DNA from: Halomicroarcula saliterrae
GTDB lineage: Archaea; Halobacteriota; Halobacteria; Halobacteriales; Haloarculaceae
Reading direction: 5' to 3'
Assembly: GCF_031624395.1 (NCBI RefSeq)
Contig: NZ_JAMQON010000005.1
Span: 186,001 to 250,000, forward strand
Length of the DNA stretch: 64,000 nt
In this document: positions 32,706 through 47,995 of the stretch, piece by piece
How the letters are laid out: the number at the start of each line of letters is the position of its first letter
Numbering within the stretch: the stretch's first letter is position 1
The notes under the pieces: model-generated
Databases searched by the model: none
The model's input: the letters and a program-made list of their open reading frames with translations, nothing else
Told to the model about the DNA's origin: nothing
Translations under genes and position numbers: made by a program

Positions 32706-33125
32706 CTACTCGCTGATACGAAGCGTCGCACTGAGAACGCCGTCTCGCAACGTTCGCTCCTCCAGTTCGGCGAGGGCGCTACGCGGCGCCTCGAGGGTCG
32801 CGAAGTGATTGCCCGCCAACTCCCCGGCCGGACTCTTGAAACAGGTGGGCCCGCAGGGGACCAGTATCTCCTGTTCGTTCCGGTATCCCGGATACAGCAG
32901 CAGGTCTCCACAGGAGGGATACACTGTGTGGTTTTCGCGTGGTATCTCGGGGAGGTCGATGTCGTCGATGTTGATCCACGTTGCGTGGCCACTCCAGCGA
33001 ACGTGCATCAGTTCCGTCTCCAGCGGCGCGATATCCTTCACTGCCGCGACCGATTCGGGGGCGTCGTCGGGCAGGAACGTTGCGGGGAACACCTCTCCGT
33101 CGACGACGAGTTCGAGCCCGCTCAT
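32706..33125 (-). CDS. DUF3830 family protein
   Basis: The 139-residue protein matches DUF3830, a cyclophilin-like barrel family of unknown function: LMHVRWSGHATWINIDDID near the middle, PSCGDLLLYPG, ILVPCGPTCF and AGELAGNHFAT near the end. DUF3830 genes often sit near amidohydrolase or ureide genes, and here it lies 76 nt after the M20 hydrolase on the same strand. It could be the last gene of the uricase operon. There is no signal peptide and no obvious catalytic motif beyond conserved Cys residues. Confidence 0.7.
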   Translation of the reverse strand: MSGLELVVDGEVFPATFLPDDAPESVAAVKDIAPLETELMHVRWSGHATWINIDDIDLPEIPRENHTVYPSCGDLLLYPGYRNEQEILVPCGPTCFKSPAGELAGNHFATLEAPRSALAELEERTLRDGVLSATLRISE

Positions 33126-33201: not shown

Positions 33202-34533
33202 TCATTTGCTTCGAGTTGCGTCTTGTTCGTTAACGTCGCCGGCGAGGGATGCGAGGGCCGCGGTGAGTATCTCGGTCGTCGCGGTGCAGGCGGGCCAGTC
33301 AGTCCACTCCAGCTTGTTGTGCGAGTGGCCGTTGTCGGAGGGAGCAAACAGCAACCCCGCATCGGTCACTCTGGCGATTTGCATGCTGTCGTGGCCCGCT
33401 CCCGAGTGAATGTCGGTCGTGCCGACGCCGACGGCGTCACCGGCATCGTGCAGGGCCTTGCGACATCGGGGCGCCATATCGACCGGGGCCACGTCGTAGG
33501 AACATTCGACCGCTGTCGCGACTCCGCGATCGTCCTCCAGTGATGCGAGCTCGTCGTGGACCGCACCGACGATACGTTTGATCACCGTATACTCGACATC
33601 GCGGATATCGGCACTGAGCTCCACTTTGCCAGGGACCACGTTGACCGCCCCGGGGTCGACGGTGAGTTCACCTACGGTCGCGACGGCGGTGTCGCTGTGT
33701 TCCGTCTCGGACTGGGCCACCCGTTCGAGCGTCAAGACCAGTTCGCTGGCGGCCGCAAGCGCATCGCTCCGGGCCGCCATCGGCGTCGTTCCGGTGTGAT
33801 CTGCCTTGCCGTCGATAGTCACGTGGAGGCGGGTGGTGCCCGATATCGTCGTCACGACGCCCGCAGGGAGCCCCCACTGTTCGAGTCGGTCGCTCTGTTC
33901 TACGTGGAGTTCGAGCCAGGCGTGCCAGCTACTCGCGTCCAGACGGCCCTCGCCGTGGAAACCGATCTCCGCCAGCGCCTCTTCGAGCGTTTCCGTGCCG
34001 TCTGAGCGGTCGAGTGCGACGTCCGCGTCCAGCTGGCCAGCAGCGACCGACGAGCCGAGAACGCCGTCCGCGAACCGCGTTCCCTCTTCGCCAGTGAAAC
34101 TCACGACGGTGACTGGACGCGAAACCGGTGTGCCGGCCGACTGCAGCGCTCGGACGGCTTCTAGCCCCGCGTACACGCCGAGGGGCCCGTCGAATATGCC
34201 GCCGTACGGAACGGAATCCAGATGGCTCCCGACGGCCACCGGCGGGGCGTCGGGGTCACAGCTGTCCGGTTCCCAGGTGCCGGCGATGTTGCCGACGGCG
34301 TCGACATCGACCGTCAGCTCTGCCTGAATCATCCGGTCGACGAGATGCTGCCGGGCGCCGCGGTTGGGCTCCGTGCCCGGCAACACGGTCCGGGCTTGTC
34401 CCTCCTCGGTTGGGACCGCGCCGAACTGCGCGTTCCGTTCGATGTCCCGCCGGAGGCGCTCACCGTCGACCGAGAACGGCGTAGCCGTCACCGTGTCACC
34501 GTCCAGACCGTCGAACGCTTTGCGGTCTTGCAT
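33202..34533 (-). CDS. M20-family amidohydrolase (allantoate amidohydrolase/N-carbamoyl amino acid hydrolase-like)
   Basis: The 443-residue Zn-dependent hydrolase has metal ligands H104 (GSHLDSVPYGG), D115 (FDGPLGV), E149/E150 (SFTGEEGTRF), H210 (LELHVEQ) and the C-terminal SGAGHDSMQIA. This is the allantoate amidohydrolase/carbamoylase type of M20 peptidase fold. In this setting (uricase, uraH and uraD neighbours) the likely reaction is allantoate to ureidoglycine or ureidoglycolate plus ammonia and CO2. It lies 68 nt after uraH on the same strand. Sequence alone cannot tell allantoate from N-carbamoyl amino acids. Confidence 0.82.
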   Translation of the reverse strand: MQDRKAFDGLDGDTVTATPFSVDGERLRRDIERNAQFGAVPTEEGQARTVLPGTEPNRGARQHLVDRMIQAELTVDVDAVGNIAGTWEPDSCDPDAPPVAVGSHLDSVPYGGIFDGPLGVYAGLEAVRALQSAGTPVSRPVTVVSFTGEEGTRFADGVLGSSVAAGQLDADVALDRSDGTETLEEALAEIGFHGEGRLDASSWHAWLELHVEQSDRLEQWGLPAGVVTTISGTTRLHVTIDGKADHTGTTPMAARSDALAAASELVLTLERVAQSETEHSDTAVATVGELTVDPGAVNVVPGKVELSADIRDVEYTVIKRIVGAVHDELASLEDDRGVATAVECSYDVAPVDMAPRCRKALHDAGDAVGVGTTDIHSGAGHDSMQIARVTDAGLLFAPSDNGHSHNKLEWTDWPACTATTEILTAALASLAGDVNEQDATRSK

Positions 34534-34601: not shown

Positions 34602-34952
34602 TTAGCTCCCCCGGTATGTCGTGTATCCGCCCGGCGACAGCAAGAGCGGTACGTGGTAGTGTTCCTCCGGGTCGTCGATGCGAAACCGGACCGGGACTGT
34701 TTCGAGAAAGCTCGACTCGGCCGACTGCTCCCTGTAGTACGCGCCCACGTCGAACAGCAACTGGTAGGTTCCCGCCGCCATCTGTTCGGGCGTCAACAAC
34801 GGCTCGTCGAGCCTGCCGTCTTCGTTCGTCGTCCCGCTGGTCACCGTCTCCATATCGCCCGACTCGTCCAGTCGCTGGAGTGTCACCTCCACGCCGGGCG
34901 CCGGCCCTTCACTGCCCGTATCGAGGACGTGTGTCGTGAGCCCGGCGCTCAT
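34602..34952 (-). CDS. uraH: 5-hydroxyisourate hydrolase
   Basis: The 116-residue transthyretin-like enzyme has an N-terminal THVLDT (H8), a central DGR (R47), HYHVP (H98, H100) and the C-terminal YRGS tetrapeptide, which are the active-site residues of the family. It converts 5-hydroxyisourate, the uricase product, to OHCU. ATG 34952 overlaps the uricase TGA by 4 nt, so uricase and uraH are one operon. Confidence 0.95.
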   Translation of the reverse strand: MSAGLTTHVLDTGSEGPAPGVEVTLQRLDESGDMETVTSGTTNEDGRLDEPLLTPEQMAAGTYQLLFDVGAYYREQSAESSFLETVPVRFRIDDPEEHYHVPLLLSPGGYTTYRGS

Positions 34953-35911
34953 TCGGTCTCCGCCTCCAGATCGTCGCGGTCCATGGAGAACTGCTGGAAG
35001 CCGGTCGGGACGTCCGGCTCGCGCAGCACCTTGGCGTCACCCTCCAGGTCGTCCCGGACGCCGATCCACGTCCGGTTGTTGGCCTCGAAGCCGACCGTTT
35101 CGAGTTGCGGGAAGCGTTCGAGCACCCGGAGCCCGACCTGGTAGATGAGGTCCTGTATCGAGTTGACGTCGAGTTCGTCGAACACGACCTGTGCGATATC
35201 ACGCACCTGTTCCGCGGGCACGTACTGGTCCGACTCCGGGGCGAGCGCGGCTCCGGCGTCGGCGTAGCTCCAGAAGATATCCATCGCCACATACAGCGTC
35301 CGGTTTTCCCGTTCGGGGAGCGTCGTGTACTCGTCTTGCACGAAGCCAGTGAAGGAGTTGTCTTTGACCTTGACGAGTTCGATGTCCGTCACCCCGCTGC
35401 GCTGGTCTTCGAGTACCGGGCCGTCTTCGCCGCTGTCGAGAACGAGTTCTCCGTAGGCTGACTCACCGTCCGCGACGCCGAAAACGAGCTCGCTCTCGTC
35501 GAAGCCGTCCTCGTCGGGGACTAGCCGCTCCTCGAAAGGGATTTCTGTAGCCGATATCTCGACCGATTCCATCTGCTCGTACGTCTCCAGCAGGGCTGTG
35601 CCGACGTGTTCGAGGAACCCCTCGAGCGTCGCGCCCTCGTACTCGCCCACGTGGTGGTGGACGAAGTTCTTCATCGAGTCAGTCGCGACCACCATGCTGT
35701 TGTCGCCCTCGCTGAACGACGGAAGGAAGGCCTCACCTTCGACCCGGACACGGACGTCCATCCCGAAGAGGGTGTTCGGCCGTCCGTCGAAGGACGACTC
35801 CGGAATCGTCTCGATGCCCTCCAGCGGGGTCGCGTACGTGCGATAGACTCTGATTTTCTCCTTCCCGTAGTTCATCGTCCGACCCTCGTCGCTCTGTGAA
35901 TCGCGGGTCAT
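34949..35911 (-). CDS. pucL: Urate oxidase (uricase)
   Basis: The 320-residue protein has two T-fold halves. It contains YGKEKIRVYR at the start, MVVATDSMKNFVHHH, the KVKDNSFTGFVQDEYTTLPE segment and, near the end, NRTWIGVRDD. These are the uricase catalytic and urate-binding segments. It oxidises urate with O2 to 5-hydroxyisourate without a cofactor. ATG 35911 is used; ATG 35875 (MNYGKEK) would remove 12 poorly conserved residues. It is translationally coupled to uraH and separated by 200 nt from uraD, which is on the same strand. Confidence 0.94.
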   Translation of the reverse strand: MTRDSQSDEGRTMNYGKEKIRVYRTYATPLEGIETIPESSFDGRPNTLFGMDVRVRVEGEAFLPSFSEGDNSMVVATDSMKNFVHHHVGEYEGATLEGFLEHVGTALLETYEQMESVEISATEIPFEERLVPDEDGFDESELVFGVADGESAYGELVLDSGEDGPVLEDQRSGVTDIELVKVKDNSFTGFVQDEYTTLPERENRTLYVAMDIFWSYADAGAALAPESDQYVPAEQVRDIAQVVFDELDVNSIQDLIYQVGLRVLERFPQLETVGFEANNRTWIGVRDDLEGDAKVLREPDVPTGFQQFSMDRDDLEAETE

Positions 35912-36111: not shown

Positions 36112-36630
36112 TCAGTCGCGCGTCACCGACGAGTCGACGATGTCATCCAGACGCAGTCGAGCGATTTTGTGAACCTCCGAGAGAGCGGTTTCGAACTCCT
36201 CCTGCTCCGATTGCTCGACCCGCTGTTCCATCGCCGCTCTGATCGCTTCCGGTGACTCGTTTTTGACCGCCATGATGAACGGGAAGCCAAAACGGTCCCG
36301 GTACAGGTCGTTCAGCCGCTGGAACTCCTCGTACAGTTCGGGACGCAACTGGTCGAGGCCGGCCGAGGACTGTTCGGCCGCAGACGCGTCCGTCATCTCG
36401 GTCTGCTCACCGAGGTCGGGATGAGCGCGCAGTAGCTCCAGCCGGCGCTCGTGCGATGCGTCCCGGACCACCGCTTCGAGCGCTGTCGCGACATCGGTGA
36501 CGGACTCGAAAGGCTGGTCCGCGTACGCGCCTCGGGCGACCCAGGGTGACTCTTCGTACACGCCACCGAGGACAGCTACGAAGCGGTCCCTATCCAATTC
36601 GTTGAGTTCGGCTATGTTCGTGTCTGGCAT
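36112..36630 (-). CDS. uraD: OHCU decarboxylase
   Basis: The 172-residue helical protein has the family motifs ESPWVA (near residue 28), ELLRAHPDLG (near 70) with the catalytic histidine, and FGFPFIMAVKN (near 120). It decarboxylates 2-oxo-4-hydroxy-4-carboxy-5-ureidoimidazoline to S-allantoin, the last step after uricase and UraH. It is on the same strand as the uricase operon and first in the set. The divergent purine permease gene starts 172 nt away, so the two may share a regulatory region. Confidence 0.93.
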   Translation of the reverse strand: MPDTNIAELNELDRDRFVAVLGGVYEESPWVARGAYADQPFESVTDVATALEAVVRDASHERRLELLRAHPDLGEQTEMTDASAAEQSSAGLDQLRPELYEEFQRLNDLYRDRFGFPFIMAVKNESPEAIRAAMEQRVEQSEQEEFETALSEVHKIARLRLDDIVDSSVTRD

Positions 36631-36801: not shown

Positions 36802-38217
36802 ATGAGTGGTCCAGCAGCCACCGATAGCGACTCCGTCGTACTGTATGGTATCGAAGACAAACCGCCCCTCGGGAAAGCGATACCGCTTGGCATCCAGCAC
36901 GTGCTGACGATGTTCCTCGGGAACGTCGCGCCACCGCTCATCCTCGCCGGCGCAATCGGGACAGTGACGGGTGAGACGACGTTCCTCGTGCAGATGGCTC
37001 TCATTGTCGCCGGCGTCGCGACGATCGTCCAGGCCTTTCCAATCGGCCCGGTCGGCGCCCGGCTCCCCGTCGTGATGGGCACCAGTTTCGCGTTTCTCGG
37101 CCCGCTCATCGCCATCGGCAACGAGTTCGGTATCGCCGCAGTGTTCGGCGCGGCGCTGGTCGCCGCCCCCGTCGAGGTGGCGATGGGGCTCTCGCTCGAC
37201 CGGTTCAGGAACTACTTCCCGCCGCTGGTCACTGGCATCGTGGTGATGCTCATCGGGCTCACGTTGATTCCGACCGGCATGAACTACGCGGCCGGAGCCT
37301 CCGCCGGTCCGTCGGCCGAGGGGTACGGCTCGTTCGCTAATCTCGGGCTCGCGGGACTGGTGCTGATTATCACTGTCGGACTCAATCAGTTCTTCGACGG
37401 CTTCCTCCGGGTCATCAGCGTCTTCGCCGGCATCGTCGTCGGCTACGTCGCGGCACTCGCCATGGGGATGGTCGACCTCTCGGCCGTCGCGGCCGCCGGC
37501 TGGATCACGGTCCCGACGCCCCTGAAGTACGGCCTTACCTTCGAGCCCAGCGCGATACTCACTGTCGCGTTCCTCTACCTCATCACGGGCATAGAGACCA
37601 TCGGTGATATCTCCGGCACGGTCTCGGCCACCGGACGAGACGCCGACGAAAAGGAACTGCGCGGCGGGCTTATCGCCGACGGCGTGATGAGCGCCTTCGC
37701 TGCGATCTTCAACGCGATGCCGAACACGTCGTACTCCCAGAACGTCGGCCTCGTCAACTTCACCGGCGTCGCGAGCCGATACGTCGTCGGCATCGGGGGT
37801 GTGGTGTTGCTCGTTCTCGGGTTCGTTCCGAAAGTCGGGGCGATAGTTTCGGCGATGCCGGATGCCGTCCTCGGCGGCGGCGCGCTGATTCTGTTCGCGA
37901 TGATCTTCGCCTCGGGTGCCCGTCTCATCGCCCAGAACGTCACGTTGAATCACCGCAACTCTACGATTCTGGCGCTCTCGATGGCGCTCGGGCTGGGCGT
38001 GGCGTTCCGACCGGAGGTCCTCCAGCAGTTCCCGACCGAAGTGCAGACGCTGTTCGGGTCCGCGCTGGTGACGGGCGGGCTGTCGGCACTTGTGCTCAAT
38101 GTCGTCATCCCCGGCGGCGGTGTCGGTACGGGACCGACCGCACACACGGACGGACTGGACCCTGATTCAGCGGCTAATATCGGGCCCGACGCGTCCGGAA
38201 CGGTGGATGACGACTGA
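36802..38217 (+). CDS. NCS2 family purine (xanthine/urate/uracil) permease
   Basis: The 471-residue membrane protein has about 14 hydrophobic segments. It carries NCS2 hallmarks: a first segment PLGIQHVLTMFLGNVAPPL, LPVVMGTSFAFLGPLI near residue 95 and a later SYSQNVGLVNFTGVASRYV. Members move xanthine, urate or uracil with H+ or Na+. Its position between uraD and two purine deaminase-like genes argues for xanthine or urate. ATG 36802 follows a TATA-like AATATAAGG near 36745-36753. The acidic tail (about 25 residues) is cytosolic. Confidence 0.92.
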   Translation: MSGPAATDSDSVVLYGIEDKPPLGKAIPLGIQHVLTMFLGNVAPPLILAGAIGTVTGETTFLVQMALIVAGVATIVQAFPIGPVGARLPVVMGTSFAFLGPLIAIGNEFGIAAVFGAALVAAPVEVAMGLSLDRFRNYFPPLVTGIVVMLIGLTLIPTGMNYAAGASAGPSAEGYGSFANLGLAGLVLIITVGLNQFFDGFLRVISVFAGIVVGYVAALAMGMVDLSAVAAAGWITVPTPLKYGLTFEPSAILTVAFLYLITGIETIGDISGTVSATGRDADEKELRGGLIADGVMSAFAAIFNAMPNTSYSQNVGLVNFTGVASRYVVGIGGVVLLVLGFVPKVGAIVSAMPDAVLGGGALILFAMIFASGARLIAQNVTLNHRNSTILALSMALGLGVAFRPEVLQQFPTEVQTLFGSALVTGGLSALVLNVVIPGGGVGTGPTAHTDGLDPDSAANIGPDASGTVDDD

Positions 38218-38262
38218 GAGCCAGCAACCCACGGTAACGTCCTGCACGCGAGGTCGCTCGTC

Positions 38263-38532
38263 GTGGTAACTCTCGGTACGCTCATCAAAGGGGGGACTGT
38301 CGTTACCGGGGATGCGATGTTCGACGCGGCGGTCGGTATCAGTGATGGCACTATCGCGGGTATCGGGATGCCGGAGGCGCTTCCGCGGGCAGAGAGGTTC
38401 GGCCCGCCGGCCAAAGGCCGAATCGAACCCGGCGTCACCGACCTCGTCGTGTTCGACCCGGCGGCGACGTACACCATCTCGGCCGGTCGGAACTACCCGA
38501 ACGCCGGCGAGATTCCGGACTGGAGCGCGTGA
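38263..38532 (+). pseudogene. Internally deleted cyclic amidohydrolase (dihydropyrimidinase/allantoinase type)
   Basis: The 89-codon frame (GTG start) fuses the first beta-sandwich strands of a cyclic amidohydrolase (LIKGGTVVTGDAMFDAAVGI, SDGTIAGIGMPEAL) directly to the C-terminal sandwich (KGRIEPGVTDLVVFDPAATY). The whole catalytic TIM barrel of about 350 residues, including HxH, the carboxylated lysine and the metal Asp, is missing. This is an in-frame deletion product, not a functional enzyme. It sits between the NCS2 permease and a purine deaminase in the uricase island. The lost gene may have been an allantoinase or a dihydropyrimidinase. Confidence 0.75.
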
Positions 38533-38581: not shown

Positions 38582-39916
38582 ATGATATTATCTGGCACAG
38601 TACTGGCAGATTCCAGTACGATTATCGAGGATGGTGCCGTTGTCGTTACCGATTCCGAAATTGTTGCTGTCGGAGAGCGTGACGCGGTCGTCCCGGAGTT
38701 TCCGGCCCTCGACGAGCAGCGCTACGACGTGCTCATGCCCGGGCTGGTGGGGAGTCACATTCACTCCGTGCAGAGTCTCGGACGAGGGATGTCGGATGAC
38801 CGGGAGCTGCTCGACTGGCTGTTCGACTACATCCTGCCGATGGAGGCGACACTGAGCGCGGACGAGATGGAGGTGGCCGCCCGGCTGGGGTATCTGGAAC
38901 TGATCGAGACGGGGACGACCACGGCCATCGACCACCTCTCGGTGTCCCACGCCGAACGGGCCTTCGAAGCGGCCGGCGACATGGGTATCCGCGGCCTGCT
39001 CGGCAAAGTGCTGATGGACCGTCGGTCGCCAGTCGGGTTGCTCGAAGAGACGGAGGCGGCCCTCGCGGAGTCGGAGGCGTTGATTCGGGAGTATCACGGC
39101 GCCTTCGACGATCGGATTCGCTACGCGGTCACCCCTCGGTTCGCGGTCACGTGCAGTGAGGCGTGTCTCCGCGGCGCCCGGGAGCTCGCCGACGCCTACG
39201 ACGGCGTGCGAATCCACACACACGCCAGCGAGAACCACGACGAAATCGAGACCGTCAGAGCCGACACCGGCAAGCGGAACATCCACTGGCTCCACGAAGT
39301 CGGACTCACGGGTGAGGACGTGGTGCTGGCCCACTGTGTGTGGACCGACGAGTCTGAACGCGAACTGCTGGCCGAGACCGGCACGCACGTCACGCACTGT
39401 CCGTCCTCGAACATGAAACTCGCCAGCGGTATCGCCCCAGTCGTGGACTATCTCGACCGCGACATCAACGTCGCGCTCGGCAACGACGGACCGCCGTGTA
39501 ACAACACGCTCGACCCGTTCACGGAGATGAAACAGGCGAGCACCCTGCAGAAGGTCGACCAGCTCGACCCGACGGCGGCGCCCGTCGAGACGATTTTCGA
39601 GATGGCGACGATAAACGGCGCCGAGGCCGCGGGCTTTGACCGTCTCGGCAAGCTCAAGCCCGGCTGGCGGGCCGATATCGTCGGGCTCTCGACGGACACG
39701 ACGCGCGCGACGCCGCTCCACGACATCCTGTCGTACGTCGTGTTCGCGGCCCGCGGCGAGGACGTGCAGTTCACGATGGTCGACGGCTCGGTCCTCATGG
39801 AACAGGGCGAGGTGGTCGTAGCCGATGCCGACGATATCAGGGCGGCGGCTCACGAGGTGGCAGCGTCGCTGGACCTGTCGGACGCGCGGATCCAGGCCCG
39901 GAAACAGAAACCCTGA
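38582..39916 (+). CDS. Amidohydrolase-superfamily deaminase (guanine/8-oxoguanine deaminase-like)
   Basis: The 444-residue member of the chlorohydrolase/deaminase branch has GSHIHSVQ (HxH, near residue 57), HTHASENHDE (metal His), AHCVWTDESE (His) and GNDGPPCNN (metal Asp). C-terminal sandwich strands carry LKPGWRADIVGL. The mononuclear-site pattern without a carboxylated lysine suits deaminases of purines such as guanine or 8-oxoguanine. Next to a purine permease and the xanthine dehydrogenase genes, guanine to xanthine is the likely reaction (inference). ATG 38582 is fixed by the TATA-like box. Confidence 0.85.
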   Translation: MILSGTVLADSSTIIEDGAVVVTDSEIVAVGERDAVVPEFPALDEQRYDVLMPGLVGSHIHSVQSLGRGMSDDRELLDWLFDYILPMEATLSADEMEVAARLGYLELIETGTTTAIDHLSVSHAERAFEAAGDMGIRGLLGKVLMDRRSPVGLLEETEAALAESEALIREYHGAFDDRIRYAVTPRFAVTCSEACLRGARELADAYDGVRIHTHASENHDEIETVRADTGKRNIHWLHEVGLTGEDVVLAHCVWTDESERELLAETGTHVTHCPSSNMKLASGIAPVVDYLDRDINVALGNDGPPCNNTLDPFTEMKQASTLQKVDQLDPTAAPVETIFEMATINGAEAAGFDRLGKLKPGWRADIVGLSTDTTRATPLHDILSYVVFAARGEDVQFTMVDGSVLMEQGEVVVADADDIRAAAHEVAASLDLSDARIQARKQKP

Positions 39917-46267: not shown

Positions 46268-47683
46268 TCACTCGTACCCGGTCCGGGAGACGAGGTCAGC
46301 CGCCGTCGCGGAGGCCCGGGCGAGGACATCGTCGACCGACTCGTCGAACGAGCGGATATCGCGGTCGCGCATCACGACCTCGCCGGCACAGACGACGGTT
46401 TCGACTTCGAACCCCTGGGCCGCGTGGACGAGGGCGAACACCGGGTCCGGGGCTGGCGTCAGATGCGGGTGGTCCATGTCGACGATGGCGATATCGGCCT
46501 GTTTCCCGACCGCGAGCGAGCCGAGTGACTCGCCGCGGCCTATCGCCCGGGCAGCGTCGATAGTGATCATGTCGAACGCCGTCTGGGCCGGGACCACGCC
46601 GGCGTCGCGATGGTATCCCTTGTGGCCACCGGCCATCGCACGGACGTCGCCGAGGGGGTTGACGGTGTCGCTCAGAATCGAGTTGTCGGTCCCGAGCCCG
46701 ACGGTGACGCCGCTTTCGAGCATCGTCCGGACCGGCGCATAGCCGGTCGCGAGGCGCATGTTCGCCATGTAGTTGTGTGCCACGGCGGTGTCGGTCCGTT
46801 CGAGGAGTCGTACGTCGCTCGTAGAGAGCTGGACGCAGTGGCCCAGCAGGGTCCGCTCGCCGAGATACCCGACGTTACGGAGATACTCGATACTCGATAT
46901 CGAACGCTGTTCCTGGGCCTCGGCTTCGGCGACGTGTGCCGTCGTCATCACGTCGTGCTTTTCGGCGAGTTCGTACGCCTCGCGAAACCCCTGGTTGGTC
47001 GTCGTCTCGACCACGACCGGCGCGGGCCAGACCGCCTGCCGTCCGTCCGCAGTCCCGTGATACGTTTCGATGAGCGAGTCGACCGCTGCGACGACATCGT
47101 CGGTCGCCTCGACGAACGCGTCTATCGGGGGGTGGTCGACGTCGTCTTCGCGGGCCTGAACGTCGGTGACGAGCCGCTGAAACTCGTCGTCGGCCGGCCG
47201 GTCGACCATCCCCGCACCGTAGACGTTGCGGATACCAGCCCGCTCGTACGCATCGAGTTTCGCCTCGATAGTCGCCCAGTCGTCCCAGACAACCTCGGTG
47301 TCGTTTTCGACGAACGTCGTGACGCCGGCCCGAATCGCTTCGATGCAGTACAGCATCGCGGCGGTCTCGTGTTCCTCGGGCGCCATCGCGAGGGTCCCGG
47401 GCCGCTTGACGTTGTACAGCCAGTCGAGCAGGCCACGGTCCTCGGCGAAGGAGCCACGCAACAGGATATCGGAGACGTGGGTGTGTGGGTTGACCAGTCC
47501 GGGGATAACAGCACAGCCAGACGCGTCTATCACCTCGTCGGCGTCGGACGCCGGGACCAACTCCTCCGTGGGACCGACAGCGACGATTCGACCGTCCTCG
47601 ACGGCGACAGCACCGTCCTCTATGACTGTCCGCTGGTCGTCCTGTGTCACCACCCGCCCATCGCGAATCAGCAGGTCAGTCAT
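46268..47683 (-). CDS. Amidohydrolase-superfamily deaminase, second copy
   Basis: The 471-residue chlorohydrolase/deaminase-branch enzyme has NPHTHVSDILL (HxH), TTAHVAEAEAQEQ (His), LLGHCVQLS (His) and GLGTDNSILSD (metal Asp), with sandwich strands at both ends (RDGRVVTQDDQRTVIEDGA and GKQADIAIVDMD). It is related to but distinct from the deaminase at 38582-39916. It is the first gene of the block that includes XdhC and the XDH subunits. It probably deaminates a purine, nucleoside or related base before oxidation. ATG 47683 replaces a longer extension with shadow-like composition. Confidence 0.86.
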   Translation of the reverse strand: MTDLLIRDGRVVTQDDQRTVIEDGAVAVEDGRIVAVGPTEELVPASDADEVIDASGCAVIPGLVNPHTHVSDILLRGSFAEDRGLLDWLYNVKRPGTLAMAPEEHETAAMLYCIEAIRAGVTTFVENDTEVVWDDWATIEAKLDAYERAGIRNVYGAGMVDRPADDEFQRLVTDVQAREDDVDHPPIDAFVEATDDVVAAVDSLIETYHGTADGRQAVWPAPVVVETTTNQGFREAYELAEKHDVMTTAHVAEAEAQEQRSISSIEYLRNVGYLGERTLLGHCVQLSTSDVRLLERTDTAVAHNYMANMRLATGYAPVRTMLESGVTVGLGTDNSILSDTVNPLGDVRAMAGGHKGYHRDAGVVPAQTAFDMITIDAARAIGRGESLGSLAVGKQADIAIVDMDHPHLTPAPDPVFALVHAAQGFEVETVVCAGEVVMRDRDIRSFDESVDDVLARASATAADLVSRTGYE

Positions 47684-47995
47684 GGCCCCACTCGAACGCA
47701 GGCAGTCGCGAGTCACAGCCCGTCCGCTGCGGGTCGGTACACAGCCGGTTTCGGAAAGGTAGCACACCGGTACTCGCACAGCTCGATAGAAATACCTGCT
47801 CGATTCGTCATCTTTTGCGAGCGGACCGGGAGCAACGGAACGGAACCGCCGATATCGGCTCGGAAAATTTCACATTGCGATGAGTTCCATATTTCGGGAG
47901 TGAGAGTGGATATACAGACACAAAACTGTGCGAATATCGCCAATTTAGGTGGTATTATATGCTACTGGTGTCACCTTTTCAGATAACCGGATAGT

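Follow-up and report, generated by a model that had tools for sequence, protein, structure and literature searches.

A probable remnant of an allantoinase-type enzyme in a haloarchaeal urate island, and the paralogue that may replace it

Which enzyme opens the ring of allantoin in a haloarchaeal urate island where the gene at the place of the allantoinase is an open frame of 89 codons? The window (the whole stretch of DNA analysed, 64,000 nucleotides) lies on a 404-kb contig of a 4.2-Mb haloarchaeal genome. The first-pass annotation had described, around this short frame (hereafter the stub), an otherwise complete urate-to-allantoin island with an allantoate-type hydrolase, and the Pfam and NCBIfam assignments of the neighbours agree. 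The features are as follows (OHCU decarboxylase and 5-hydroxyisourate, or HIU, hydrolase being enzymes of urate breakdown).

32706-33125, minus strand, DUF3830 protein
33202-34533, minus strand, M20 hydrolase of the allantoate amidohydrolase/carbamoylase type (Pfam/NCBIfam)
34602-34952, minus strand, HIU hydrolase, transthyretin-like (PF00576)
34949-35911, minus strand, uricase (PF01014)
36112-36630, minus strand, OHCU decarboxylase (PF09349)
36802-38217, plus strand, xanthine/uracil-type permease, the upstream synteny anchor (PF00860)
38218-38262, plus strand, gap of 45 bp between permease and stub
38263-38532, plus strand, stub, probable remnant of a clade-A cyclic amidohydrolase (HydA/AllB type), 89 aa, GTG start
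38263-38397, plus strand, N-terminal sandwich strands of the stub, residues 1-45, the last residues ambiguous at the junction
38398-38505, plus strand, part of the C-terminal sandwich, residues 46-81, after a loss of ~326 codons; contains a one-codon gap
38506-38532, plus strand, terminal tail GEIPDWSA and stop, equivalent to the C-terminal end of intact enzymes, after a loss of ~41 codons
38582-39916, plus strand, 5'-deoxyadenosine-deaminase-type amidohydrolase, the downstream synteny anchor, with its own TATA-like stretch in the preceding gap
46268-47779, minus strand, second deaminase-type amidohydrolase

The island also contains a xanthine-dehydrogenase-type complex (three subunits recognised from sequence) and XdhC (Pfam/NCBIfam), and its M20 hydrolase presents no visible damage. 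Among the 32 sampled species of the genus, uricase occurs in the host only, so that the island has been either gained by the host lineage or lost by the others. A purine-degradation cluster has been proposed in Haloferax volcanii (HVO_B0299-B0310, with pucM, pucL1, pucL2, pucH1, amaB4, and coxSLM), although the complete pathway is termed highly speculative by its authors (PMC8305020). Both that cluster and the window cover urate oxidation, HIU hydrolysis, and OHCU decarboxylation, and both include an allantoate-type hydrolase, a xanthine-dehydrogenase-type complex, and a hydantoinase/allantoinase-like gene; in Haloferax, this last gene is listed in the cluster (PMC8305020), whereas in the window its counterpart is the stub. 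The deaminase at 38582-39916 scores above the NCBIfam cut-off for 5'-deoxyadenosine deaminase (668 vs. 522 bits); its place suggests a role on purine bases or nucleosides.

The stub starts with GTG and stops at 38530-38532. In DNA as rich in G+C as this, such short open frames abound (104 of at least 60 aa in 18 kb of the window), so that the frame alone is meaningless and the homology is what counts. Over residues 6-44, the stub shares 72% identity with the N-terminus of the intact enzyme of G025, a genome of the same genus (E 3e-16 in a five-sequence database), and residues ~43-81 are up to 70% identical to the C-terminal strands of intact enzymes. The model for D-hydantoinase/dihydropyrimidinase (TIGR02033) matches residues 7-39. 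As in the enzymes of that model and of allantoinase AllB (TIGR03178), both blocks of the stub align with the small beta-sandwich domain of the hydantoinase/allantoinase cyclic amidohydrolases. The intact clade-A orthologues cover both models end to end; the stub, unlike these enzymes, is without barrel, metal ligands, and last strands (89 vs. ~457 residues).

Set against eight intact clade-A relatives, the stub lacks 326-327 codons at the join of its two blocks. From the second block to the terminal "PDW" tail it lacks another 42, including a separate one-codon gap. The (beta/alpha)8 barrel with its metal ligands (HxH, Lys, His, His, Asp) is wholly absent, all five ligand positions falling within the missing segment, and so are the last strands of the C-terminal sandwich. 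Thus, the fusion of N- and C-terminal strands without a barrel, as first described, stands by homology, but the C-terminal end is not complete: the loss of ~41 further codons, the one-codon gap, and the loss of upstream DNA had all been missed. With barrel and ligands deleted, no catalysis by the stub is possible. The deletion junctions display at most very short shared stretches around Pro-Ala codons; for want of a near-identical intact copy, the exact end points and any junction repeats cannot be fixed.

That the stub stands where an allantoinase would be expected, as proposed from the window, is borne out in G271 (locus L065). An intact orthologue is present there at the same place, flanked on its two sides by the same permease and deaminase. 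The order in G271 is ABC ATPase, deaminase 2, deaminase 1, intact enzyme, permease, OHCU decarboxylase, uricase, HIU hydrolase, M20 hydrolase, and DUF3830 protein. The window keeps this relative order; the stub replaces the enzyme, and the xanthine-dehydrogenase genes separate the two deaminases. The search of related genomes for intact orthologues that had been suggested also finds them at L061, L067, and L070, where the enzyme adjoins the same permease. At these four loci, all with this permease as neighbour, 175-344 bp separate the permease from the enzyme (vs. 45 bp in the window), and three of the four gaps contain a TATA-like motif that is absent from the gap of the window.

Uricase is found in 31 other sampled genomes, and an intact enzyme of the stub's type in all 31. 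The two genes are 1.6-16.1 kb apart (start to start) in 30 of them; in the remaining one (G095), they are on different contigs of the draft. In a maximum-likelihood tree, the uricase-linked enzymes comprise clade A (that of the stub), a large clade B, and the enzyme of G094. In G348, intact copies of both clades A and B occur. In G295 (L068:4750-5082), the clade-A copy has a one-base deletion and two in-frame stops and is truncated after ~100 codons, with an intact clade-B enzyme 2.3 kb from the uricase. Like the stub, the G295 pseudogene is thus a decayed clade-A gene accompanied by an intact substitute of another clade, there near the uricase; the decay in G295 proceeded by frameshift, two stops, and truncation, whereas that of the stub consists of in-frame deletions. 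Decay of clade A beside a second clade has occurred at least twice, independently. Both stops in G295 are Trp-to-stop changes, and the pseudogene adjoins an intact permease. A 75-codon end frame in G273 (C2) was considered as another stub and rejected: a gene lacking its N-terminus (homology from residue 19) is present at the other end of the contig, and the two probably belong to a single gene interrupted by the ends of the contig. In the congener G025, which has no uricase, a clade-A enzyme (C1:1182172-1183539, L029) is found near ABC-transporter ATPases and adjoins an M20 hydrolase only 35% identical to that of the window, possibly a hydantoin-utilisation locus. Because of this enzyme in a uricase-less genome, clade A is not strictly linked to uricase.

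Another allantoinase was also to be sought in the host genome, as first proposed. A general amidohydrolase model has 16 matching stretches there. Intact full-length enzymes of the hydantoinase/allantoinase type are only two, at C5:265564-266940 (459 aa) and C4:119119-120492, and both keep the metal-ligand residues; a third match (C7) is only 30% identical. An allantoinase of the PuuE type is absent from the host genome and was rejected as the substitute, the best score against TIGR03212 (29.7 bits) being far below the cut-off (424.6). The C4 paralogue was set aside as the likelier substitute, since its clade in the tree is not linked to uricase. The C5 paralogue is on the contig of the stub, 41 kb away, where it adjoins amidases outside the urate island. 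It is 73% identical to the G094 enzyme, its sister in the tree (support 100/100), and G094 has no other enzyme of this type; the gene is placed within the urate island of that genome, flanked by deaminase 1 and the DUF3830 protein. The C5 paralogue reaches neither the cut-off of the allantoinase model nor that of the dihydropyrimidinase model; with TIGR03178 (AllB), it scores 287.4 bits (cut-off 357.85), and the intact island enzyme of G271 is also below (284.1).

The stub is very probably a dead remnant of the allantoinase-type enzyme of the island, the job of which would now most likely be done by the C5 paralogue. The whole metal-binding barrel, the last strands of the sandwich, and DNA upstream of the gene would have been lost by deletion. 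What remains may be in one frame by chance, or the decay may be recent. The conversion of allantoin into allantoate would then most likely fall to the C5 paralogue. From the window, two outcomes had been left side by side, that the pathway stops at allantoin or that another enzyme has taken over. Sequence comparison favours the second, since the C5 paralogue keeps its ligands and has an island enzyme (that of G094) as its closest relative, PuuE is absent, and each of the 31 other uricase-positive genomes has an intact enzyme.

The first outcome, a dead gene with nothing in its place and allantoin excreted or left for other cells, is unlikely, although it keeps more weight than any other alternative. 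The island enzyme is gone, neither intact paralogue is in the island or above the NCBIfam allantoinase cut-off, and the C4 paralogue belongs to a clade without uricase linkage. Yet a pathway ending at allantoin fits poorly with the retention of an apparently undamaged M20 allantoate-type hydrolase in the island, with a C5 paralogue that is sister to an island enzyme, and with the intact enzyme in every other uricase-positive genome.

Is the stub itself still under selection? At second codon positions, it differs from its clade-A relatives at 14-19 sites and intact pairs differ at 4-12, about a twofold excess, with similar third-position differences; this is a simple count on 73 alignable codons, not a formal test. 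At near-invariant sites, the stub has 14 private amino acid changes, the most of nine sequences (4-9 in the others), and it departs at five of the 30 residues invariant in clade A. Its three indels are all in frame, which would happen by chance in about 1 in 27 cases (1 in 9 if only the two large ones are counted), and the frame has acquired no stop codon. These last features speak against a mere remnant and leave some room for selection for a short peptide.

It is nevertheless highly improbable that the 89 residues form a working mini-protein, such as a regulator or binding partner consisting of the sandwich domain alone. Besides the in-frame indels and the open frame, a GAGG-like stretch 5' of the GTG would suit such a protein; the restriction to one species, the missing last strands, the signs of relaxed constraint, and the lack of an upstream TATA-like motif and of a confident fold do not. 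A conserved family of short proteins with this fusion, which the first-pass annotation had named as evidence against decay, does not appear among 392 genomes of the order or 146 of the family (overlapping samples). In a plasmid collection, no fusion was recognised among the five records with a match, and a scan of GTDB contigs matched only a distant deltaproteobacterial enzyme. In AlphaFold2 models predicted from single sequences, and thus weakly informative, the stub reaches a mean pLDDT of 37.5, and the 116-residue HIU hydrolase, treated likewise, one of 64.0; the stub has no confident predicted fold. Scans for bacterial-type promoters and terminators gave nothing useful for an archaeon. That the stub is still translated and survives as a sandwich protein without a barrel, for instance one binding or regulating the surviving allantoinase paralogue, is a still more distant prospect. 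Least credible of all is an assembly or strain artefact with the gene intact in the living organism: the observation is based on a single assembly, but one assembly collapse does not produce two large deletions together with a one-codon gap, a shorter upstream region, and additional substitutions in the codons that are left.

With a dead remnant and a C5 substitute as the preferred reading, the locus would be a clean, small example of ordinary gene decay inside a catabolic island, with a probable substitute. More generally, a hydantoinase/allantoinase-type enzyme is a nearly constant member of the urate islands of haloarchaea; the enzymes belong to at least three clades, which seem to substitute for each other. 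The comparison supports the still speculative haloarchaeal pathway of purine degradation and names three enzyme clades that can be tested. A literature search found no paper on the decay of allantoinases in haloarchaea.

Two further observations concern the surroundings. The probable substitute adjoins two amidases (L033:12327-16943, equivalent to G000:C5:262327-266943). Its surroundings, which include a cytidine-deaminase-like protein and more amidohydrolases as well, constitute a second region of nitrogen-heterocycle catabolism on the contig. The DUF3830 protein, named in no paper found by the literature search, occurs in all 12 related urate-island loci mapped (the 11 carrying the island-type M20 gene, plus G094), where it is 62-83% identical and usually beside the M20 hydrolase; it is a candidate ureide-catabolism protein.
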